Shown in pieces: positions 8,837-63,759 of a DNA stretch of 64,000 nt. Every line of letters starts with the position of its first letter. Positions within the stretch are counted from its first letter, which is position 1. The stretch is from Tautonia plasticadhaerens. Its GTDB lineage: Bacteria; Planctomycetota; Planctomycetia; Isosphaerales; Isosphaeraceae. The stretch lies in NCBI RefSeq assembly GCF_007752535.1, contig NZ_CP036426.1, positions 7,874,001-7,938,000 on the forward strand. Direction: 5' to 3'. The position numbers were made by a program, and so were the translations under genes. The notes under the pieces are model-generated. The model was not told the origin of the DNA. It worked only from the letters and a program-made list of their open reading frames with translations, and made no database searches.

Positions 8837-9226
8837 GGCAGGGCCCGAGCCCTGGGGGCCCTCGTCGATCGTCCGAGGGCGGGGGCGCAAGGGGGATCCG
8901 CGCCAGGACAAGGATTCCCGAGTGGAATCGGTCGACCCGCCCTTCCCTCGCCCTCCGGCTACCGCGGATGCTTGGTCGATGGCCGATGTTTCGCCGTCGC
9001 CGGGCCGGGGCCATCGGACCACGATCGTCCCGAGATCCCCCGGGTTTCCGGCCCTGCCAGGGCCCGCTTCGGACGCTTCGCCCCCAAGGACGAGCCCTGC
9101 CTCATGGTCGGGGAATGCCTGGCAAAGGTCCCCGTACCTGCCTCGTAAGCGCAGACACGACGCGGTCCGGTCTGCGACAATGGTGCCAGATTCGACGGGA
9201 CCCTTGAGGATCCGAGGCGAAGCACC
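8837..9226. other. Intergenic stretch without a recognisable gene
   Basis: I see no supportable gene, promoter or strong hairpin in these 390 bases. Short open frames on both strands look like composition artefacts. Confidence 0.4.
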
Positions 9227-10585
9227 GTGGCAGATCGTGGTCTTGATCGCTTCTGGGGCGAGTGCGGCTCATCCGCTCCGCTTCGCTTGCTCATCTGGGA
9301 ACGCGGCCGGCGCGAGCCCGTCGAACACCGCCTGGACCGCCCATTCGCCATCATCGGCCGGACGGAACCTGCTGACTTGGTCCTGGACCACCCCCAGGTC
9401 AGCCGCCGGCACGCCTTCCTCCAGGTGATGGGCGGCCGAGTGTACTGCCTCGACCTGGGAAGTCGGTCGGCCCTCGGATGGGGAGGCGGGATTCGCCGAT
9501 CCGGCTGGATCGATCCGGGTCGTCCGGTCGAGATCGGCCCGTATCGCATCGGCCTGGGCACCGAGGATGCCCGAGCTCGTCCCGCGCAATCCCCCCCGAA
9601 CCTCCTCATCGATCCCGGCATCCCGGGTGACCGGATCGCCCTCGAATCAAGCGCCGAGGTGACCCCCGGGCTTCATCGAAGGGCGGTCGACCGCCCCCTC
9701 ATCACCGTCGGTCGCGCACCGGAGTGCGACCTGAGGCTCTCCGATCTGAGCGTCTCCCGCCTCCATTGCGCCCTGATCCGGGTGGGCGAGTCCCTTTGGG
9801 TCGTCGACTTGCTCGGCCGAGGCGGTGTCCAGGTCGACGGCAATCGAAGGCGATGGGCCCCGCTGGGGGCCGGCTCGCAACTGAAGGTGGGCCGATACTT
9901 GTACACGATTCGGATCGAATCGCTCCCGACGCTCCGGCTCCGTGGGCCCGAACGCCCCTCGCCCGGACTCCCCTCACCGGGGGAGCCCGGCTCCCCGACC
10001 CTCCCGGCTCTGGCCCAGTTGCCCGCTCGGCGTCCCGGACACGGCCTCTCGGGCTCGATCGGCCCTGCCGCGGCGGTGCTCCGCGCCCACCTCCCGGAGC
10101 CGGTCACCGTCGAATTCCCGCAGGCCGATGCGACCCGGATCGCGGAGGCCATGATCGGCCCGCTGGTTGACCAGTTCGACCTGATGCAGCAACAGCTGTT
10201 CGACCAATATCATCACTCTATGATGGAAATGATGGCCGTATTTGCCCGCCTCCATCAGGGCCGACAGGACCACGTCGATCGCGAGTTGAAGAAGATCCGG
10301 CGTCTGACGCGGGAGGTCCGCTCGCTTCGCAAGGAACTGGACCGTCAGGACGGGGAATCGGGCCGGGAGTCCGGTCCTGCTCCGCCCCGTTCATCCGACC
10401 TCGACCGTGCGACCTCCACGGGCGAGTCGCCCCTCCAATCGACCCCCCGAGGCGCCCCTGGGGACTACCGGGCGGCCCAGGCTCGGATCATCGCCCGGAT
10501 GAACGAACTCCAGCGAGAGCGCCAGGGTCGATGGCAACGCCTCCTCGGCCGGCTCTCCGGGGGCGGTCCGGACGAGGAGCGGTGA
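9227..10585 (+). CDS. Double FHA-domain protein with C-terminal coiled coil
   Basis: A 452-residue soluble protein starting at a GTG. Two FHA domains, which bind phosphothreonine, are visible. The first spans about residues 20-105 (IIGRTEPADLVLDHPQVSRRHAF) and the second about 150-235 (TVGRAPECDLRLSDLSVSRLHCAL); both keep the GR, S and RxH signature residues. A Pro-rich linker follows, then an amphipathic coiled coil around residues 300-380 (EFPQADATRIAEAM; KKIRRLTREVRSLRKELD). The protein probably recruits phosphorylated partners of Ser/Thr kinases, a class also present at the end of this window. No neighbour identifies its pathway. Confidence 0.88.
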   Translation: MADRGLDRFWGECGSSAPLRLLIWERGRREPVEHRLDRPFAIIGRTEPADLVLDHPQVSRRHAFLQVMGGRVYCLDLGSRSALGWGGGIRRSGWIDPGRPVEIGPYRIGLGTEDARARPAQSPPNLLIDPGIPGDRIALESSAEVTPGLHRRAVDRPLITVGRAPECDLRLSDLSVSRLHCALIRVGESLWVVDLLGRGGVQVDGNRRRWAPLGAGSQLKVGRYLYTIRIESLPTLRLRGPERPSPGLPSPGEPGSPTLPALAQLPARRPGHGLSGSIGPAAAVLRAHLPEPVTVEFPQADATRIAEAMIGPLVDQFDLMQQQLFDQYHHSMMEMMAVFARLHQGRQDHVDRELKKIRRLTREVRSLRKELDRQDGESGRESGPAPPRSSDLDRATSTGESPLQSTPRGAPGDYRAAQARIIARMNELQRERQGRWQRLLGRLSGGGPDEER

Positions 10586-48500: not shown

Positions 48501-48658
48501 TTGCGCCCGGGTCGGGGTCCGGATGGCGGCGGCGGGGCGACTCGGCCTACAATACCGGCAAGGCCCGGATCCCGGCCGGCGACGGCCCGGCCGATCCGAC
48601 CGGCCCGGTGACCGGACCGCCCCGCCGGGCCTCGACGGCCGAACCCCCGAGACCGCCG

Positions 48659-51600
48659 ATGTCCAGCCGCAACGCCGCCGGCCACCCCGCCGGCGCCCGC
48701 ACCCGAATCGCCCCCGCCCGGTCGATCGACCGCCTCCGAGGCCGCCTGGCCGACGCCACCCGCGCCGAGATCCGCTTCGACCGGGGCAGTCGGGGGCTCT
48801 ACGCCACGGACGCCAGCCTCTACCAGATCATGCCCGTCGGCGTGGTCGTCCCCCGCACCGTCGAGGACGTGGCCGCCACGGTCCGGGTCGCCGCCGAGGA
48901 AGGCGTGCCGATCATCCCCCGAGGCGGCGCGACCAGCCTCTCGGGCCAGGCCATCGGCGCCGGGATCGTCCTCGACGCCTCGAAGCACCTCACCCGGATC
49001 GGCACCGTCGACCGGGACCGGATGACCGTCCGTGTCCAGCCCGGCGTGGTCCTCGGCCGCCTCAATGCCGAGTTGAAGCCGCTCGGCCTGATGTTCGCCC
49101 CGGACGTCTCCACCACCGACCGCGCCACCCTCGGCGGCATGATCGGCAACAACTCCGCCGGCGCCCGGTCGCTCCGGTTCGGCAAGACGGTCGACAGCGT
49201 CCGCTCCCTCGACGTCGTGCTCGCCGACGGCTCCACCGCCACCCTCGGCCCCCTCGGCCCGGCCGAACTGGCCGCCGCCTGCGCCCTCGACGGCATCGTC
49301 GGCCGGACTCACCGGACGGTCCGGGACCTGGTGAGGGACCACGAGGATGCCATCCGGAGGCACTTCCCCCACCTGCTCCGACGGGTCAGCGGCTACAACC
49401 TCGACGAGTTCGTCCCCGGCCTCCCGGTCCGGGCCCCGCAGGCCCCCGACGACCCCTGGGCCTTCAACCTCGCCAAGCTCGTCGTCGGCTCCGAGGGCAC
49501 CCTGGCCGTCGTCACCGGCGCCGAGCTGAAGCTCGTCCCCGCCCCGGAGCACCAGGGCCTCGTCGTCCTCTCCTTCGCCACCATCCCGGCCGCGCTCGAC
49601 CGTCTCCAGGAGATGCTGGAGACCGGGCCCGTGGCCGTCGAGATGGTCGACCGCGCGATCATGGACCTCGCCGCGAAGAACCCGGAATACGCCAAGAGCC
49701 TCGGCTTCGCCGCCGGCCACCCCGAGGCCGTGCTCGCCGCCCAGTTCTACGCCGATTCGCATGACGAGCTGGTCGAGAAGACCGCCGACCTCGCCCGACG
49801 CTTTTCGGGCGCACCCGGCGTGCTCGGCATCCGGACCACCCTGCAGGACGCCGCCCGGGACGACTTCTGGAAGGTCCGAAAGGCCGGCTTGTCGCTGCTG
49901 ATGGGCATGGTCGGCGACCCCAAGCCAGTCGCCTTCGTCGAGGACACCGCCGTCCCCGTCGAGCGGCTCCCCGCCTTCTACGACCGCTTCCGGGCCATCG
50001 TCGACCGCCACGGCACCGTCGCCTCCTGCTACGGCCACGCCGACGTCGGCTGCCTGCACATCCGCCCCGTCCTGAACATGAAGGCGCAGGAGGACGTCGA
50101 CAAACTCCGATCCATCGCCGCCGAGGTCTCCGACCTCGTCCTCGAATTCGGCGGCTCCATGAGCGGCGAGCACGGCGACGGCCTCGCCCGGAGCCGGTGG
50201 AACCGCAAGCTCTTCGGCGACGAAATCTACGGCGCCTTCCGCTCCATCAAGGACGCCTTCGACCCGCACGACCTGATGAACCCCGGCAAGGTCGTCGCCG
50301 AGCCCGACCCCGGCGTCGACCTCCGCTTCGGCGCCTCCTACCGCACCCCGCTTGAGCCCCGGCAGACCGCCTTCGACTTCTCCGACCAGGGCGGCTTCGC
50401 CCGGGCCGTCGAGCTCTGCTCCGGCGTCGGCGCCTGCCGCAAGACCGGCACCGGCACCATGTGCCCCAGCTACATGGTCACCCTCGACGAGGACCACTCC
50501 ACCCGAGGGCGGGCCAACCTGATGCGCCTGGTCATGTCCGGCGCCTTGCCGAGCGAGGGCATGGTCAGCGCGGATCTGGAGCGGGCCCTCGACCTCTGCC
50601 TCCAGTGCAAGGCCTGCAAGACCGAGTGCCCGTCGAACGTCGACATGTCCCGGCTCAAGTCGGAGTACCTGCACCAGAAGTATCGGACTCGGTCCATCCC
50701 GCTCGGCTCCCTGCTGGTCGCCCACGTGCATCGGCTCAACGCGATCGGCTCCGCGACGGCTCCCCTGTCGAACGCCCTGGCGAAGTGGTCCCCCGTCCGT
50801 TGGCTCATGGAGCAGATCGCCGGGTTCGACCGCCGCCGGGTCGTCCCCGAATTCGATCGGGACCATCTCCGACGCTGGTTCCGCCGCCATCGGCCGGATC
50901 CGAGGGCCGGTTCCCGGGGCCGGGTCATCCTGCTCGACGACTGCTTCACCACCTACAACCAGCCCGCCGTCGGCCGGGCCGCCGTGTCCGTGCTGGAGGC
51001 CTCCGGCTACTCGGTCGAGCTCGCCGGACTCCCCTGCTGCGGGCGGCCCGCCATCTCCAAGGGCCTGCTCGACCTCGCCGGCCACTGGGCGAGGCAGAAC
51101 GTGGCGAAGCTCGCGGCCGACGCCCGAGACGGGGTGCCGATCCTCGGCTGCGAGCCCTCCTGCATCCTCACCCTGGCCGACGAGTACCGCGCCCTCCGCC
51201 TCGGCCCCGACGCCGACGCGGTGGCCGACGCCTCGATGATGATCGACCGCTTCCTCGCCGACCCCGGCCGGGTCCCCGACCTCCCCCTCCGGCCCCGGCC
51301 GGGCCGGGTCCTGCTGCACGGCCACTGCCAGCAGAAGGCGACGGTCGGCACGGCGGACACCGTCGCCGCGTTGCGTCTCATCCCCGGCCTGGAGGTGGCA
51401 ACCCTCGACTCCGGCTGTTGCGGCATGGCCGGCTCGTTCGGCTACGAACTCGGCCACTACGACGTGAGCGTCGCCCTGGCCGAGCGCGTCCTCCTGCCCG
51501 CCGCCCGGGCCGAGCCGGACGCCCCCCTCCTCGCCCCCGGCTTCTCCTGCCGGAGCCAGGTCCACGGCCTGGAGGGGATCGACGCGCTCCACCCCATCGA

Positions 51601-51670
51601 GCTGATCGCCGCACAACTCGACGCCGCCGCCCCCACCGCGCAAGCTCCCCGTGCCGAGGCCACCCGATGA
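48659..51670 (+). CDS. FAD-linked oxidase fused to Fe-S domains (D-lactate/glycolate dehydrogenase type)
   Basis: A 1003-residue fusion. The N-terminal half is an FAD_binding_4/FAD-oxidase_C flavoprotein (IIPRGGATSLSGQAIGAG; GMIGNNSAGARS; GEHGDGLARSRW). The C-terminal half has 4Fe-4S motifs (CSGVGACRKTGTGTMCPSY; CLQCKACKTECPSN) and two CCG domains (GLPCCGRPAISKG; CEPSC; GCCGMAGSFGYE), like GlcF/DLD-type subunits. It probably oxidises a 2-hydroxyacid such as D-lactate and passes electrons to the respiratory chain. The ATG at 48659 gives the best N-terminus; one at 48608 is possible. Its stop overlaps the next start by 4 bases. Confidence 0.92.
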   Translation: MSSRNAAGHPAGARTRIAPARSIDRLRGRLADATRAEIRFDRGSRGLYATDASLYQIMPVGVVVPRTVEDVAATVRVAAEEGVPIIPRGGATSLSGQAIGAGIVLDASKHLTRIGTVDRDRMTVRVQPGVVLGRLNAELKPLGLMFAPDVSTTDRATLGGMIGNNSAGARSLRFGKTVDSVRSLDVVLADGSTATLGPLGPAELAAACALDGIVGRTHRTVRDLVRDHEDAIRRHFPHLLRRVSGYNLDEFVPGLPVRAPQAPDDPWAFNLAKLVVGSEGTLAVVTGAELKLVPAPEHQGLVVLSFATIPAALDRLQEMLETGPVAVEMVDRAIMDLAAKNPEYAKSLGFAAGHPEAVLAAQFYADSHDELVEKTADLARRFSGAPGVLGIRTTLQDAARDDFWKVRKAGLSLLMGMVGDPKPVAFVEDTAVPVERLPAFYDRFRAIVDRHGTVASCYGHADVGCLHIRPVLNMKAQEDVDKLRSIAAEVSDLVLEFGGSMSGEHGDGLARSRWNRKLFGDEIYGAFRSIKDAFDPHDLMNPGKVVAEPDPGVDLRFGASYRTPLEPRQTAFDFSDQGGFARAVELCSGVGACRKTGTGTMCPSYMVTLDEDHSTRGRANLMRLVMSGALPSEGMVSADLERALDLCLQCKACKTECPSNVDMSRLKSEYLHQKYRTRSIPLGSLLVAHVHRLNAIGSATAPLSNALAKWSPVRWLMEQIAGFDRRRVVPEFDRDHLRRWFRRHRPDPRAGSRGRVILLDDCFTTYNQPAVGRAAVSVLEASGYSVELAGLPCCGRPAISKGLLDLAGHWARQNVAKLAADARDGVPILGCEPSCILTLADEYRALRLGPDADAVADASMMIDRFLADPGRVPDLPLRPRPGRVLLHGHCQQKATVGTADTVAALRLIPGLEVATLDSGCCGMAGSFGYELGHYDVSVALAERVLLPAARAEPDAPLLAPGFSCRSQVHGLEGIDALHPIELIAAQLDAAAPTAQAPRAEATR

Positions 51671-52611
51671 CGACCGCGACCGCCCGAATCCCGTTCGCGT
51701 CGGTCCTCCTGATCACCACTCCGGTCCTCGCCATCGCGGACGGCCCCGCGCCGCCGGCCGGCCGGATCGCCGCCGACGTGGCTGCATTGGTCGGCTTCGG
51801 CACCCGGCACTCGCTCTCGGACCAGAACGACCGGGCCGCCGACTGGCTCGCAGGCCGATTCCGCGAACTCGGCTACGACGAGGTCGGTTTCCACGAGTTC
51901 GCGATCGGCGGCCGGACCCGGCGGAACGTGATCGCGACGATCCGGGGCACCTCGCACGCCGATGAGGTCGTCCTAGTCGGCGCCCACTACGATTCCCGGA
52001 ACCGCCGCATCGGCGACGCCGAGGGCCCCGCCCCCGGAGCCGTCGACAACGCCTCGGGCACCGCCGCCCTGCTGGAACTGGCCCGCTCCCTCGCCGGAGA
52101 CGCCGATCGGCCCGGCCGCACCGTCCGGCTCATCGCCTTCAGCGGCGAGGAGCAGGGGCTCGTCGGCTCGCGTGCCTATGCGAACACGGCGAAGGAGGCC
52201 GGCACGACGATCGCGCTGATGATCAACCTCGACATGATCGCCCACCCCATGGACGAGGACGGCCTCGCGATCGTCGTCGAGCGTGACTCCGGCCTCCGCG
52301 ACCCCGAGAACGACGAGGACTCCGCCTCCTGGGCCTCCCGGCTCGAATCGCACGTCAGGGACGCCGGCCTGATCCCCAGCCCCGGCCCGCTGTACGGCAG
52401 CGACTACATGCCGTTCGAGGCGATCGGCGTCCCCTGCGTCGGCCTCTTCGACGGCGCCGACCGCGCCCCCTTCTACCACGACGAGGCCGACACGCCGGAC
52501 CGGGTCGACCCGGACTACTGCGCCGCCGCCACCCTCGCCACCCTGTCCCTCATCCGAGAGGCGGCCGACCCGGGTTTCGCCCCCGGCCGAAGGGGACACG
52601 AGGCGCCCTGA
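51667..52611 (+). CDS. M28-family zinc aminopeptidase, exported
   Basis: A 314-residue enzyme with a predicted signal (FASVLLITTPVLAIADGP). The two-zinc site of M28 peptidases is clear: GAHYDSR (H), GAVDNASG (D), SGEEQGLVG (E/E), INLDMIAHP (D) and PFYHDEAD (H). It removes amino-terminal residues or acts as a glutaminyl-peptide cyclotransferase; both fit. Its ATG overlaps the upstream oxidoreductase stop (ATGA), so it is translated coupled to it, although no functional link is evident. Confidence 0.92.
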   Translation: MTTATARIPFASVLLITTPVLAIADGPAPPAGRIAADVAALVGFGTRHSLSDQNDRAADWLAGRFRELGYDEVGFHEFAIGGRTRRNVIATIRGTSHADEVVLVGAHYDSRNRRIGDAEGPAPGAVDNASGTAALLELARSLAGDADRPGRTVRLIAFSGEEQGLVGSRAYANTAKEAGTTIALMINLDMIAHPMDEDGLAIVVERDSGLRDPENDEDSASWASRLESHVRDAGLIPSPGPLYGSDYMPFEAIGVPCVGLFDGADRAPFYHDEADTPDRVDPDYCAAATLATLSLIREAADPGFAPGRRGHEAP

Positions 52612-53320: not shown

Positions 53321-54346
53321 TCAGGAGTTGGAGTAGATCCGCCCCGGCCGCTCCCAGGAGTTCCACTTCGGCTCCCGGCGATACCAGCCCAGCCCGGCCG
53401 CGTTGCGGTAGCAGGTGCGGCCGAGGACGTGCATGATCACCATCGCCTCGTACAGCACGAACACCCAGAAGGCCCACAGGCCCAGCCCCGCCGCCGTCAC
53501 GGTCGGCGCGTGGTACATGACCAGTCGCCAGCCGAAGACTGCCAGGAACAGGGCGAAGGCCGTCAGCATGCACGGGGCGAGATATTCCCGGCCGATCACC
53601 CGGACGGCGTGGGCGATGCTCACCGGGTGTGCCAGCGCGAAGTTGTCGTGCAGGATCGCCGCCGCCAGGCCCATCTGCACGTAACCGGCGGCCAGGCCGA
53701 CCAGCGCCGCGATGGCCACCCAGTCGACCGGCCCCAGCTCCCCCCGGAGTTTCACGTACAGCACGATCGGCAGGGCCCCCACCCCCAGCCCGACGATCCC
53801 CGCCCAGACCCAGCGGGCCAGGCCTTCGAGGATCGTGTGCCGCTCCCAGATCGGGAACTTCGGGTGGTCGGTGCGGCCCATCGCCCCGTCGGTCAGCACC
53901 AGGGCGAGGTACAGGAGCACGTACCCCGCGACGAAGGTGAAGCTGATCACCAGCGGCAGGGCGAACGGCAAGAGCAGGAGCGCCAGCGGGTTGAACCCGC
54001 CCCGGGGCGCGTCCCGGAAGAACATGACGATGTCGAAGACCGGCACCGACATGAACGTCAGGAACGGGGGGAAGAAGACCAGCAGCATCAGCCCCGGCCC
54101 GTCGACCAGCGGGAAGGCCAGGGCCTCCCCCAGCCCCAGCGGCCTCCCCCGCTTCGGGTACTGCTCCGACGGCCGTTTCCGCCCGACCAGCCGGCGGAAG
54201 AACCCGACCTGCTCGGACGGCTCGGCATCCCGGATCTGGCCATCGGCGCCGACCACCCGCCCGCACGAGGGGCATCGGCCGAACCCGCCCTCATCCGGGT
54301 CGGGTGCCTTCAGCCACGAGCCGCACTTGCAGATGACGATCGCCAT
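53321..54346 (-). CDS. Membrane protein with N-terminal zinc ribbon
   Basis: A 341-residue protein. It begins MAIVICKCGSWLKAPDPDEG with a second pair FGRCPSCGRVVG, a four-Cys zinc ribbon on the cytoplasmic side. About six transmembrane helices follow (LMLLVFFPPFLTFMSV, LLLLPFALPLVISFTFVAG, AGIVGLGVGALPIVLYV, AAGLGLWAFWVFVLY). Similar zinc-ribbon plus DUF4013-like membrane proteins are common in Planctomycetes. No function can be assigned. Confidence 0.85.
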   Translation of the reverse strand: MAIVICKCGSWLKAPDPDEGGFGRCPSCGRVVGADGQIRDAEPSEQVGFFRRLVGRKRPSEQYPKRGRPLGLGEALAFPLVDGPGLMLLVFFPPFLTFMSVPVFDIVMFFRDAPRGGFNPLALLLLPFALPLVISFTFVAGYVLLYLALVLTDGAMGRTDHPKFPIWERHTILEGLARWVWAGIVGLGVGALPIVLYVKLRGELGPVDWVAIAALVGLAAGYVQMGLAAAILHDNFALAHPVSIAHAVRVIGREYLAPCMLTAFALFLAVFGWRLVMYHAPTVTAAGLGLWAFWVFVLYEAMVIMHVLGRTCYRNAAGLGWYRREPKWNSWERPGRIYSNS

Positions 54347-54893: not shown

Positions 54894-56819
54894 TCAGGCC
54901 GGCTCCGACGAGGTCCGATCGCCTTCGCCCGGCGCCGGCCGGTCGCCCGGGGCCCGGGGCCCGGGCGGCTGCATCGCGAGGCGGACGACCCAGGCGACGA
55001 AGGCGATGGCCAGCACGTTGAGCGCCGTCGACAGGATGGCGGCGGCCGTCGAGTCCTCGTCATCGGCCTCGGCCGGGCGCCGGCCCCAGGAGGAGGGGAG
55101 CGTGGGGTCGGGGGCCTCGGGCACGCCGGTGGCGACGGCCAGGGCCTCGACCTCCTCGGGATCCAGCGGCAGCCCGGCGATCGTCAGCGCCGAGGCCGGG
55201 CCGCTGTTGGCCGTCAGGGGCACGGCCCGTCGGCTCGGCCCGGCGAGCAGCACCTGCACCCCCAGCGTCTCGACCGGCCCGTCCTGCCCGGCGTAGCTGC
55301 CGGCGGCGATCCGGGCCGGCCTCAGGAACGGCATCCGGACCGCCCGGCCCGGCGTCAACCAGCCGGGCAGCGGGCGGAGCCCCAGGGGGGGGCCGTCCCC
55401 CGACCTCCGCGAGAGCCCCGGCACCTCGCCGGCCGGGGCCAGCACGATCGCCGCGTCGAGTCCCCCCCGGCGGACCGCCTCGACCAGTTCCCGGTCGGTC
55501 CCGGCCAGTTCGGGCTCGCGGCCCCGGCCGAGGATCCGTCGGGCGATCGCCCCCGAGCCGCTCCCCTCCGGGGGCACGCCGACCCGCCCCGAGAGGGGAT
55601 CCTCGGCCCCGTCCCCGAGGCGTCGGACGAGGTGGACCAGCCGGAAGCCGACCACGGCCGCCGCCTCCACCCGGGTCTCCCGATCCGGGCCGCCGTCGAT
55701 CAGGCCGGGGAAGAAGCGCTCGGCCCCCATCAGGGCCATCCTCGCGTCCCCCCGGGCGACCGCCTCGGCCGGGTCGTCGACCCGGGTGCTCGACACCGGG
55801 CGGTCGGGGAACGCCGACCGGGCCGCCACGACCGCCTCGGCCTCCAGGTCGCCGAAGTCGTCCCGGCGGTCGATCGCCAGCGCCAGCTCCGTCGAGGTCG
55901 ACACCAAGCCCCCCTCCGGCTCGGCCGGCAGGAGCCCCCGGTCGACCAGGAACTCCCGGGCGACGATCGCCGGCCGGCGGCCCTGGATCTCGACCCGGGC
56001 GTTCAGCGCCCGCATCGCCTCCGCGTCGAGCCTCCCCGAGAGCGGCGCCAGCGCCCCCTCGATCGCCGGCCAGCGCCGGAGCGCCTCGTCCCGGACGACG
56101 AACGCCGCCTCATACGGGGGGAAGAACCCTTTCGGGTCGTCCAGCACCCGCAGGCCCAGCCCGGGGATCACGCCGTCGGTGCCGACGCCGATCGCCACGT
56201 CCACCCGGCCCCCCTCCAGCGCCCGCATCCGGTCCAACACGTCGGGGATGACCGCCGGCGGCGACGACAGCCGGATGCCGTACGCCTCCACCAGCGGCCC
56301 GAGCCCGTCCCCCGGCCTCCGGAGGAACTCCGGGGGGCAGGCCACCCGGATCCCCCCGGGGAACTTGCCCGGATCCGAGAGGTCGTCGATGCTCGCGAGC
56401 CCCAGCGCCGACGCCCGGCCCGAGGGGACGAGCACCGCGTAGCCGTTGTCGAACCCGAGCGGCCCCAGCCATCGCAGCCCCAGCGGGCCGTACGCGTGCC
56501 TGGCCGCCTCGATCGACGACCCGGCCTCGCCCCCCGGGGCCTCCCCGCCGATCAGGTTCAGGGCCGTGCCCGAATACTCCGCCATCAGGTCGACGGCCCC
56601 TTCCCTCAGGTTCGCCTGGGCCTGGTAGCTGTCCGTCGCCGTCTTGATCCGGGAGACGGGCACCCCGGCCTCCCGCAGCAGGCCGGCGGCCATCTCGGCG
56701 AGGATCGCCTGCTCGACGAAGTCCTTCGAGCCGATCGCCACCGAGTCCCGCCCCCCACCGCAGCCGGGGAGCACCGTCGAGGCCAGGAGCAGGCCAATGA
56801 TGCAACTGCGCGTCTTCAT
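54894..56819 (-). CDS. Lipoprotein combining OpuAC-type and TAXI-type solute-binding domains
   Basis: A 641-residue lipoprotein (LLASTVLPGCGG lipobox). The first domain (about residues 25-290) is an OpuAC/ProX-like glycine-betaine-type binder (VAIGSKDFVEQAILAEMAAG; QANLREGAVDLMAEYSGTAL; FDNGYAVLVP). The second (about 310-530) carries TAXI-family features of TRAP transporters (GRVGVPPEGSGSGAIARRIL; ARIAAGSYAGQDGPVETLGV). A C-terminal transmembrane helix (AAILSTALNVLAIAFVAWVV) tethers the other end. It begins 3 bases after the BCCT transporter gene, so the pair is one operon. No ABC permease or ATPase is present. The exact partner relationship is inferred. Confidence 0.85.
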   Translation of the reverse strand: MKTRSCIIGLLLASTVLPGCGGGRDSVAIGSKDFVEQAILAEMAAGLLREAGVPVSRIKTATDSYQAQANLREGAVDLMAEYSGTALNLIGGEAPGGEAGSSIEAARHAYGPLGLRWLGPLGFDNGYAVLVPSGRASALGLASIDDLSDPGKFPGGIRVACPPEFLRRPGDGLGPLVEAYGIRLSSPPAVIPDVLDRMRALEGGRVDVAIGVGTDGVIPGLGLRVLDDPKGFFPPYEAAFVVRDEALRRWPAIEGALAPLSGRLDAEAMRALNARVEIQGRRPAIVAREFLVDRGLLPAEPEGGLVSTSTELALAIDRRDDFGDLEAEAVVAARSAFPDRPVSSTRVDDPAEAVARGDARMALMGAERFFPGLIDGGPDRETRVEAAAVVGFRLVHLVRRLGDGAEDPLSGRVGVPPEGSGSGAIARRILGRGREPELAGTDRELVEAVRRGGLDAAIVLAPAGEVPGLSRRSGDGPPLGLRPLPGWLTPGRAVRMPFLRPARIAAGSYAGQDGPVETLGVQVLLAGPSRRAVPLTANSGPASALTIAGLPLDPEEVEALAVATGVPEAPDPTLPSSWGRRPAEADDEDSTAAAILSTALNVLAIAFVAWVVRLAMQPPGPRAPGDRPAPGEGDRTSSEPA

Positions 56820-56822
56820 CGG

Positions 56823-58394
56823 TCAGGCCTCCTCCACGCCGGGCCGAGGCCGGTCGACCGCCGCGCCTTCCGTGCGCCCCGATCCCCGGGCCCGCCCCGG
56901 GTCGGTGGCGAGCGACCGGACCAGCGCCGCCGCCTGCAGGAGCAGGATGAGCGTCAGGGGCAGGGCGAAGCTGATCGCCCCGGCCCGGACCACCGCGATG
57001 TTCTTGCTCAGCGTCAGCGCGGCCCCGAGGGCCGCCAGGGTGATCCCCCAGGCGAACTTCCGGGACCGAGGGGGGTCCATCGCCCCCCGGCTCGTCAGCA
57101 TGCCGAGCACGTACGTGGCGCTGTCCACGCTCGTCACCACGAAGACGAACAGCAGCACGAGGGCCGTCCCCATCAGCAACGCCGGGGCCGGCAGGCGGTC
57201 CAGCAGCGCGAACAGCGCCGTCGTCACGTCCTCCTCCACCACCGAGGCGATCCCGCCGGCCCCGTGGGTCTCCTCGTAGATCCCCATGCCGCCGAAGACG
57301 GAGAACCAGACCAGCGAGAAGGCCGTCGGCACCAGCAGGACGCCCGCGACGAACCCCCGGATCGTCCTCCCCTTGCTGATCCGGGCGATGAAGATCCCCA
57401 CGAACGGCGCCCAGGCGATCCACCAGATGAAATAGGTCAACGTCCAGGAGCCCACCCACTCCCTCAGATCTTCATGGGGGTAGAGCCGGAACGAGAGGCT
57501 CGGCAGCGCCGAGAGGTAGTCCCCCAGGCCGGTGATGAGGCAGCGGAGCAGGAACGGCGTCGGCCCGACGAGCAGGACGAAGGCCATCAGCAGGATCGCC
57601 AGCGACATGTTCACGTTGCTGAGGATCTTGATCCCCTTGTCCAGCGAGGTCGCCGCCGAGGTCATGAAGGCGGCGAAGAGGACGAGCAGCAGGAGCAACG
57701 CGAACCAGGTCGCGTCGGCCGGCGTGCCCACCACCAGGTTCAGGCCCGTCTGGAGCTGGAAGACCCCCATCGCCAGCGACCCCGCCACGCCCAGGGCCAC
57801 CGCCAGCACCGCGACCAGGTCGGCCAGGTCCGCCACCGGCCTCACCCACCTCCCGGTGAAGGCCGCCCGGATCGGCGCCCCGGCCAGGAAGGAGGTCCCC
57901 CTGCGGTAGTGGAAATACGCCAGCACCAGGGCCCCGACGCTGTAGACCGCCCAGGCGTGGAAGCCCCAGTGCAGCATCGTCAGCACGATCGCCTGCCTCG
58001 CCGCCTCGGGGGAAAGCGGCTCACCCAGCGGGGGCGAGGCGAAGTGGGTCATCGGCTCGGCGACGCCCCAGAACAGCAGCCCCACCCCCATGCCCGCCGC
58101 GAAGAGCATCGCCAGCCAGGAGGCCGTGGAGAACTCCGGCGTGTCCCCCGGCCGGCCCAGCGTGATCGACCCATACGGCCCGATCGCCAGCCAGGCGGCC
58201 AGCACCAGGAACCCGGTCACCGAGCCCATGAAGAACCAGTCGAGCGTCTCGAAGAACGTCGAGGTCAGTTCGGAGACGGCGCCGGAGAACGTCTCGGGCC
58301 AGAGGATCCCGGTCAGGGCCACGATCACGCAGCTCGGCAAGGCGACGTGAAACAGCCCGATCCGCCCCCTCCCGGGGCGAGGTCGGTCGTCCAT
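56823..58394 (-). CDS. BCCT-family betaine/choline/carnitine transporter
   Basis: A 523-residue secondary transporter with about twelve transmembrane helices. The BCCT signature is seen in GMGVGLLFWGVAEPMTHF and in WTLTYFIWWIAWAPFVGIFI, followed by RISKGRTIRGF. BCCT carriers import betaine, choline or carnitine with sodium or protons, often for osmoprotection. The gene starts the leftward unit and is followed after 3 bases by the dual solute-binding lipoprotein. A regulatory C-terminal tail is short here. The arrangement with a binding protein is not typical for BCCT carriers. Confidence 0.93.
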   Translation of the reverse strand: MDDRPRPGRGRIGLFHVALPSCVIVALTGILWPETFSGAVSELTSTFFETLDWFFMGSVTGFLVLAAWLAIGPYGSITLGRPGDTPEFSTASWLAMLFAAGMGVGLLFWGVAEPMTHFASPPLGEPLSPEAARQAIVLTMLHWGFHAWAVYSVGALVLAYFHYRRGTSFLAGAPIRAAFTGRWVRPVADLADLVAVLAVALGVAGSLAMGVFQLQTGLNLVVGTPADATWFALLLLLVLFAAFMTSAATSLDKGIKILSNVNMSLAILLMAFVLLVGPTPFLLRCLITGLGDYLSALPSLSFRLYPHEDLREWVGSWTLTYFIWWIAWAPFVGIFIARISKGRTIRGFVAGVLLVPTAFSLVWFSVFGGMGIYEETHGAGGIASVVEEDVTTALFALLDRLPAPALLMGTALVLLFVFVVTSVDSATYVLGMLTSRGAMDPPRSRKFAWGITLAALGAALTLSKNIAVVRAGAISFALPLTLILLLQAAALVRSLATDPGRARGSGRTEGAAVDRPRPGVEEA

Positions 58395-59243: not shown

Positions 59244-60026
59244 TCACCGGGCCTGCAGGCGGAGGCAGCGGGCGAGCAGCTCCGCCCGGCTCGACACCTC
59301 GAAGCGCCGGTACAGGGCCGTCACGTACTCGTGCACGGTGGGGCGGCTCAGCCCCAGCCGCACCGCGACCTGCTTCTCACTATCCCCTTCGAGCAAACAC
59401 TCGAGGACCTGGCGGAGCCGGGGCGGGAGCCCGGTGATGACCCGGTCCGGCTCGCGGAGCAGCACCGGGCCCACCAGCCGAGCGAGCTCGTGGTGGAGCA
59501 GGTGCACCAGGCGACGCTCCCGCTCGGCGAACCGCGCCGCGCCGGGCGGGCGGAGCAGGACGATGAGGTGGATCGCCCGCGGATCGCCCAGCGCGGATAG
59601 CGAGTGGACCCAGTCATCCACCCCGGAGGTCCGACGATACTCGTTGAAGACGGCCGAGGAGTACCAGGCGTCGTCGGCGATGAGCTGCTCGCGCCTCCGC
59701 GTCACCAGCGGCCGCGCCAGGCCGACCAGCGGCGCGAAGGTGACGTCGTCTGCCGGGCTCCGCTCCATCTCGAAGTCCATCAGCACCGCCCGGGCGGCGG
59801 CCGAGTCCCAGCCGACGTCGGCCGGCGCGTGCAGGGCCTCCTTCCAGGTGGGCCCGTCGCCGCGCACCTCTGCCGCCAGGCCGACCTGGGCGCCGACGAG
59901 GCGACGGAGCCCGGCGAGCAGGTGCTCCCTCCAATCCCGCACCCGGCCGCCGAGGTCGCGGCACTCGCCGACCAGGCGGTACGCATCCCTGAGCTCGCGC
60001 AGCCGGGGCCTGGACGACTTGCCCAT
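59244..60026 (-). CDS. LuxR-type transcriptional regulator
   Basis: A 260-residue protein. The C-terminal 65 residues are a LuxR helix-turn-helix (LPPRLRQVLECLLEGDSEKQVAVRLGLSRPTVHEYVTALYRRFEV-like pattern, with key residues G-SEKQVA and RPTVHEYV). The N-terminal 190 residues have a GAF-like mixed alpha/beta pattern with no clear ligand site and no receiver domain (the usual DD and phospho-Asp are missing). It is divergent from the kinase/WD40 gene and may control it, although this is inference. Confidence 0.86.
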   Translation of the reverse strand: MGKSSRPRLRELRDAYRLVGECRDLGGRVRDWREHLLAGLRRLVGAQVGLAAEVRGDGPTWKEALHAPADVGWDSAAARAVLMDFEMERSPADDVTFAPLVGLARPLVTRRREQLIADDAWYSSAVFNEYRRTSGVDDWVHSLSALGDPRAIHLIVLLRPPGAARFAERERRLVHLLHHELARLVGPVLLREPDRVITGLPPRLRQVLECLLEGDSEKQVAVRLGLSRPTVHEYVTALYRRFEVSSRAELLARCLRLQAR

Positions 60027-60159
60027 GAGGCGCTCCCCCGCCCGGGCGGCGCGGGACGACCCCTCTGTTTAGAGGGATGGATCGAAAGGAACCGTGCCTT
60101 TACTCATGATAATGATCCCGCCGGTTGAATGGATAGAATTTTTTCCCGGGGGGCAACTC
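60027..60159. other. Divergent region between LuxR-type and kinase genes
   Basis: A small A/T-rich stretch with a TAGAAT at 60134-60139, a perfect 6-base hairpin CCCTCT-GTTT-AGAGGG (60061-60076) in the LuxR leader, and a near-palindrome ATGATAATGATC around 60106-60117. Operators are plausible but unproven. Confidence 0.4.

Positions 60160-63759
<3,600 letters not shown>

Follow-up and report, generated by a model that had tools for sequence, protein, structure and literature searches.

The window analysed here is a stretch of 64,000 nucleotides from the planctomycete Tautonia plasticadhaerens (contig NZ_CP036426.1, positions 7,874,001 to 7,938,000). It carries, side by side on the reverse strand, a gene for a carrier of the BCCT family and a gene for a lipoprotein with an OpuAC-type domain, a TAXI-type domain and a C-terminal transmembrane helix. 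From the comparisons described below we consider it probable that the two genes encode one transport system, namely a secondary transporter that depends on a binding protein and carries a betaine-like solute (a quaternary ammonium or sulfonium compound). Support for a coupling of carrier and binding protein comes from genetic linkage, from the match between clades and from co-evolution.

Domain architecture of the lipoprotein

The carrier is a full-length BCCT (PF02028, 537.7 bits, positions 2–484 of the 485 in the profile), and a genome search showed its gene to be the sole BCCT gene of T. plasticadhaerens. The lipoprotein gene starts 3 bases past the BCCT stop codon, in agreement with the initial annotation of this DNA, which had placed it directly after a BCCT transporter. 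The same annotation had described a lipid anchor at the start of the protein, an OpuAC domain, a TAXI domain and a transmembrane helix at the end. We recovered the anchor as a VLPGC lipobox whose cysteine, Cys20, is kept in 15 of 15 homologues. The final helix was likewise predicted (residues 590–616) in the AlphaFold2 (AF2) model of the lipoprotein, which was built on six sequences and has a mean pLDDT of 72.7. Homologues also have a hydrophobic helix near the C-terminus, followed in several of them by basic residues.

The OpuAC assignment was confirmed by two approaches: the Pfam profile PF04069 is matched over positions 2–255 of 257 with 159.4 bits (E = 1.7e-46; gathering score 21.2), and residues 25–298 of the AF2 model match B. 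subtilis OpuAC/OpuBC and ProX with Z values up to about 33 (VIA-align). For the C-terminal half of the window protein we found no Pfam family match, and with the TAXI family references TIGR02122 and PF16868 the result depended on the sequences used. Taken alone, the window protein reaches only 14.2 bits against TRAP_TAXI (E = 0.015), far below the curated cut-off of 84.35. Among the homologues, TRAP_TAXI is matched by every one of the nine sequences that made up the first C-terminal alignment (best E = 1.1e-11) and NMT1_3 by five of six full-length members (best E = 7.4e-12). A profile of the nine C-terminal rows finds the TAXI structures 1us4/1us5 at E = 1.3e-13 and VcGluP (8s4j) at 4.5e-6. 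Residues 305–576 of the AF2 model align to the TAXI structures 4ddd (Z 19.2), 1us4 (Z 17.5) and 8s4j (Z 17.3), and the boundaries of 310–530 given initially are therefore too short. In whole-genome profile searches the module proteins score at E < 1e-57, as opposed to about 1e-4 to 1e-16 for weaker TAXI-like matches. One weak TRAP_TAXI match lies elsewhere in the genome of T. plasticadhaerens (L050).

Seen together with its relatives, the C-terminal domain is firmly placed as TAXI-derived, though not as a canonical member of this group, whereas the assignment is weak when judged from the window protein by itself. As predicted from these profiles and models, the lipoprotein combines in a single polypeptide two folds of binding proteins that belong to separate classes of transporter.

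Linkage and joint inheritance with one BCCT clade

In contig scans, homologues were found with the C-terminal alignment and none with the single protein. For 16 full-length homologues the genomic context could be read, and each of them has a BCCT gene directly upstream on the same strand. The distance between BCCT stop and lipoprotein start ranges from -4 to +24 bases, and at least 8 of the 16 pairs overlap by 1 or 4 bases, the ATGA-type overlap of 4 bases being the commonest. A 17th homologue (G1090) is split over two contigs, with OpuAC sequence adjoining the BCCT gene on the BCCT contig. The neighbour survey proposed with the initial annotation thus placed the gene beside a BCCT, and not beside an ABC permease, at every readable locus.

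Two congeners of T. plasticadhaerens (G040 and G041) have the same pair, with 61–63% identity for the binding protein and 81% for the BCCT, while both genes are absent from a third (G042). Outside the genus full-length homologues of the lipoprotein occur in Ca. Uabimicrobium amorphum and a metagenome-assembled genome (MAG) of the same family, so that two distant planctomycete families are represented in all. Others were found in the Alphaproteobacteria (Roseovarius atlanticus, Defluviimonas salinarum, a Rhizobiales MAG, Paracoccus aminovorans, Martelella and G775). A MAG labelled Deltaproteobacteria and five further genomes from its phylum have such homologues as well. The module is seldom met with: among 392 sampled genomes from the phylum of the window, a BCCT match was obtained for 25, and the module is present in only 3 of these. 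Since the arrangement is conserved across phyla and holds at 16 of 16 loci, we rejected chance adjacency.

Two of the homologous loci show irregularities. In Ca. Uabimicrobium amorphum (L090/L100) the reading frame shifts on passing from the OpuAC to the TAXI part, at about 7930–7990 of L090 in an A-rich run, most likely due to a sequencing indel rather than a split into two genes. On plasmid IV of Paracoccus aminovorans (L105, 6458–7959) the partnered BCCT lies in two frames next to an open binding-protein gene; it is possibly a pseudogene or else a sequencing error. We also came across matches to the N-terminal half, at about 32–42% in family members, which looked like relatives and turned out to be ABC permease-OpuAC fusions.

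A branch with 100/100 support divides the tree of 47 BCCTs into the partnered carriers and all others. At 29 other alphaproteobacterial BCCT loci no OpuAC-TAXI neighbour was detected within 1.5 kb. Pairwise distances of the BCCTs correlate with those of the OpuAC domains (r = 0.94) and of the TAXI domains (r = 0.90), with a permutation p of 0.0002; shared species history contributes to this correlation. As judged from these comparisons the binding protein is passed on only together with a single clade of BCCTs, and the two form a conserved module. In both trees, for the carrier and for the binding protein, the genus of the window groups with representatives of the Deltaproteobacteria-MAG phylum and not with the other planctomycetes, which points to a transfer of the gene pair as a unit.

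These data also bear on the idea that the lipoprotein is an orphan binding protein of an ABC transporter encoded elsewhere and shares an operon with the BCCT for co-regulation only. OpuAC is after all a family of ABC binding domains, and the genome holds an ABC permease-OpuAC fusion at another place. Against this, the BCCT is the direct neighbour wherever the context can be read and has co-evolved with the binding protein, the module OpuAC domains are separated from the ABC OpuAC domains with a support of 99/99, and the ABC systems of the family bring their own fused OpuAC. We regard an orphan ABC component as very improbable.

Ligand-site residues, carrier residues and a proposed mechanism

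The OpuAC domains of all 15 homologues share six ligand-type residues without exception: K32, Y82, T85, Y127, R168 and Y236. These residues presumably correspond to the cation-box tyrosines and carboxylate contacts of known ProX structures (AfProX); the equivalence was drawn partly from an alignment with OpuCC. For the TAXI domain the situation is different. Y45 and Q93 of VcGluP are the two critical ligand residues (PMC11574862). Their equivalents, the motif G-x-Y-[YF]-P-x-G and a glutamine, are absent from all 15 module proteins. The TAXI domain has instead a conserved set of its own (R340, F370, H396, R500, T518 and Q522), invariant in all 15. With an intact OpuAC site and a lost TAXI ligand motif, the most economical interpretation assigns ligand binding to OpuAC and sees the TAXI-derived domain as having turned structural.

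One could also imagine that the TAXI-derived domain alone delivers a new kind of substrate, with OpuAC as an independent second binding function and a carrier substrate other than betaine. This would account for the invariant residues of the TAXI domain, and the valine at position 212 of the window OpuAC could be taken in its favour. However, no module protein has retained the known TAXI ligand residues, and both the OpuAC residue set and the Trp box of the BCCT are intact. Altogether we hold delivery by the TAXI-derived domain to be improbable.

Residues of the carrier were compared between 16 partnered and 22 other BCCTs, the sample on which these residue counts rest. The BetP Trp box (W189, W194, Y197, W374) and the BetP Na2 Thr/Ser are kept in all 16 partnered carriers. 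The groups differ on transmembrane helix 8 (TM8): the position of BetP F369, T320 in the window, is non-aromatic (T, I, M or V) in 16 of 16 partnered carriers and aromatic in 22 of 22 others, and the position of W371 is F or L in the partnered carriers and W in 20 of the 22 others. By the spacing of the TM8 motif F369 equals F316 of DddT, which is part of the proposed substrate-entry path; the exchange F316A abolishes activity (PMC13270143). An altered entry path is to be expected if a partner hands over the substrate. In addition, the partnered BCCTs all have a valine at the position of T246 in the BetP Na1 site (V199 in the window); DddT likewise lacks the Na1 residues of BetP.

Based on these observations we propose the following mechanism. 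The OpuAC domain would act as a high-affinity trap for the solute in the periplasm, while the TAXI-derived domain and the transmembrane helix would serve to dock and tether the protein on the periplasmic face of the BCCT. The carrier would then receive the solute and move it inward on an ion gradient, and its entry path may be altered because the substrate comes from the binding protein and not from bulk solution. As to the origin of the parts, we see about even chances that OpuAC was taken from ABC importers, that the TAXI domain was recycled as a ligand-free dock and that the carrier lost part of its entry path and now depends on the hand-over. Of the three functions named in the initial annotation (delivery of solute, sensing, scaffolding), the evidence favours delivery by OpuAC combined with scaffolding by the TAXI-derived domain, and sensing less so.

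A sensory role deserves consideration nevertheless. The lipoprotein might be a regulator in which periplasmic ligand binding gates or activates a carrier still fed from solution, in place of the cytoplasmic osmosensing tail of BetP. The partnered BCCTs have short cytoplasmic C-tails of 6–34 residues, although those of many other BCCTs are similar; the lipoprotein is tethered by both a lipid and a helix; and in four alphaproteobacterial loci a gene for a universal stress protein is next in the operon. In contrast, the change of the entry aromatic in every partnered BCCT is better predicted by delivery than by regulation, and the ligand type of OpuAC fits the carrier family. We therefore consider a sensor unlikely, yet the least so among the alternatives to delivery.

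Several points weigh against a hand-over of solute from the lipoprotein to the carrier. To our knowledge, characterised BCCTs operate without a binding protein. The family also contains separate ABC permease-OpuAC fusions, including the one in this genome. The altered BCCT residues could stem from a different substrate instead of a hand-over. Finally, OpuAC position 212, occupied by Y or F in 13 of the 15 homologues, is a valine in the window protein, for which reason the affinity or the ligand may differ there.

Relation to known systems and genomic setting

In searches of the available literature we found no published account of a BCCT carrier with a binding protein, which agrees with the earlier statement that no system of this form had been described. 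The nearest precedent, not mentioned in that statement, is TAXI-GltS of Bordetella pertussis (BP0403/BP0402), described in 2025 (PMC12344293). There, too, a TAXI lipoprotein with an extra domain and a secondary carrier of a kind that normally needs no partner are linked by translational coupling, and a TRAP membrane gene is absent. The carrier of that system is GltS, a glutamate carrier modelled as elevator type, and the ligand is bound by the TAXI domain, whereas the module described here has a LeuT-fold BCCT as carrier, probably binds its ligand through OpuAC, shows no ligand motif in its TAXI domain and possesses an additional transmembrane helix at the C-terminus.

TAXI-type TRAP transporters (VcGluP-VcGluQM, PMC11574862) share the fold of the C-terminal half and the principle of a binding protein feeding a secondary carrier. 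The module differs from them in having no TRAP membrane component and no equivalents of VcGluP Y45 and Q93, and in the BCCT gene as adjoining membrane gene in every readable homologue. With Opu/ProU-type ABC importers (OpuB/OpuC/ProX, permease-OpuAC fusions) it has in common an OpuAC domain with a site of quaternary-ammonium type; this domain is, however, fused to TAXI and a transmembrane helix, forms a clade of its own and comes without ABC permease or ATPase. Like BetP, BetT, CaiT and DddT the carrier is a complete BCCT with Trp box and Na2 Thr/Ser, but known members act without a binding protein, and the partnered ones lack the F369/F316 aromatic and have valine at BetP Thr246. The module would work most like TAXI-GltS and is most suitably grouped with the binding-protein-dependent secondary transporters, as a variant outside the TAXI-GltS, TRAP and ABC Opu systems.

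BCCT carriers have a LeuT-like fold and do not belong to the elevator type. Before 2025 binding proteins were known only for the TRAP and TTT secondary transporters, to which TAXI-GltS was then added; its authors noted that such partnerships are rare, that an elevator mechanism is perhaps required and that further classes would test this proposal (PMC12344293). Owing to its fold, a binding-protein-dependent BCCT would count against the elevator requirement. If our proposal is true, the module would be the first binding-protein-dependent system on a LeuT-fold carrier and a direct test of the 2025 proposal, and with a confirmed partnership a mechanically different type of carrier would join the few transporters fed by binding proteins. 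Moreover, one of two joined binding-protein folds has apparently been turned into a docking part. The conservation of the module and its homologues in cultured strains (Roseovarius atlanticus, Martelella) make the question testable.

Table 1. Positions of the genes, domains and residues discussed. Positions refer to the window unless a locus number is given.
Feature	Position	Strand	Remark
BCCT carrier gene	56823..58394	-	523 residues; Pfam BCCT, E = 2.8e-161
BCCT V199	57798..57800	-	BetP T246 position (Na1 site)
BCCT T320	57435..57437	-	BetP F369/DddT F316 position, TM8 entry path
Lipoprotein gene (OpuAC-TAXI-TM)	54894..56819	-	641 residues
Lipobox L17-P-G-C20	56760..56771	-	Cys20 as predicted lipidated residue
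OpuAC domain, residues 26–291	55947..56744	-	Pfam match
TAXI-type domain, residues 305–576	55092..55907	-	homologue profiles, AF2 fold match
C-terminal transmembrane helix, residues 590–616	54972..55052	-	AF2 helix prediction
Universal stress protein genes	L102 5508–5960; L103 about 8925–9377; L105 9814–10308; L157 downstream of binding-protein gene		

The universal stress protein gene follows directly after the BCCT and OpuAC-TAXI-TM genes in the four alphaproteobacterial loci, which gives a three-gene cassette. One of these calls was tested with Pfam, one was annotated and two were made by sequence similarity. The TRAP transporter TeaABC has a comparable companion, TeaD.

In the window, the flanking genes tested with Pfam encode an FAD-linked oxidase, an M28 peptidase, CbiX, a LuxR-type regulator and a kinase-WD40 protein, and no transporter parts. 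Neither an ABC permease or ATPase, as already stated in the initial annotation, nor a TRAP gene (DctM/DctQ-type membrane component) was found among them, and no ABC component is fused to the lipoprotein gene. Just downstream of the lipoprotein gene a frame at 53324–54343 (-), within an open reading frame (ORF) of 460 residues, shows hydrophobic stretches on visual inspection, matches no Pfam family (E <= 0.001) and may encode a membrane protein. The M28 peptidase domain forms the C-terminal part of a long frame (50461–52611, +) that overlaps the preceding FAD-linked oxidase ORF (48608–51670); its true start is probably further in. On the other side, the gene for the LuxR-type regulator (59244–60026) adjoins one at 60094–63759 (+) whose product joins a protein kinase domain to an extended series of WD40 repeats.

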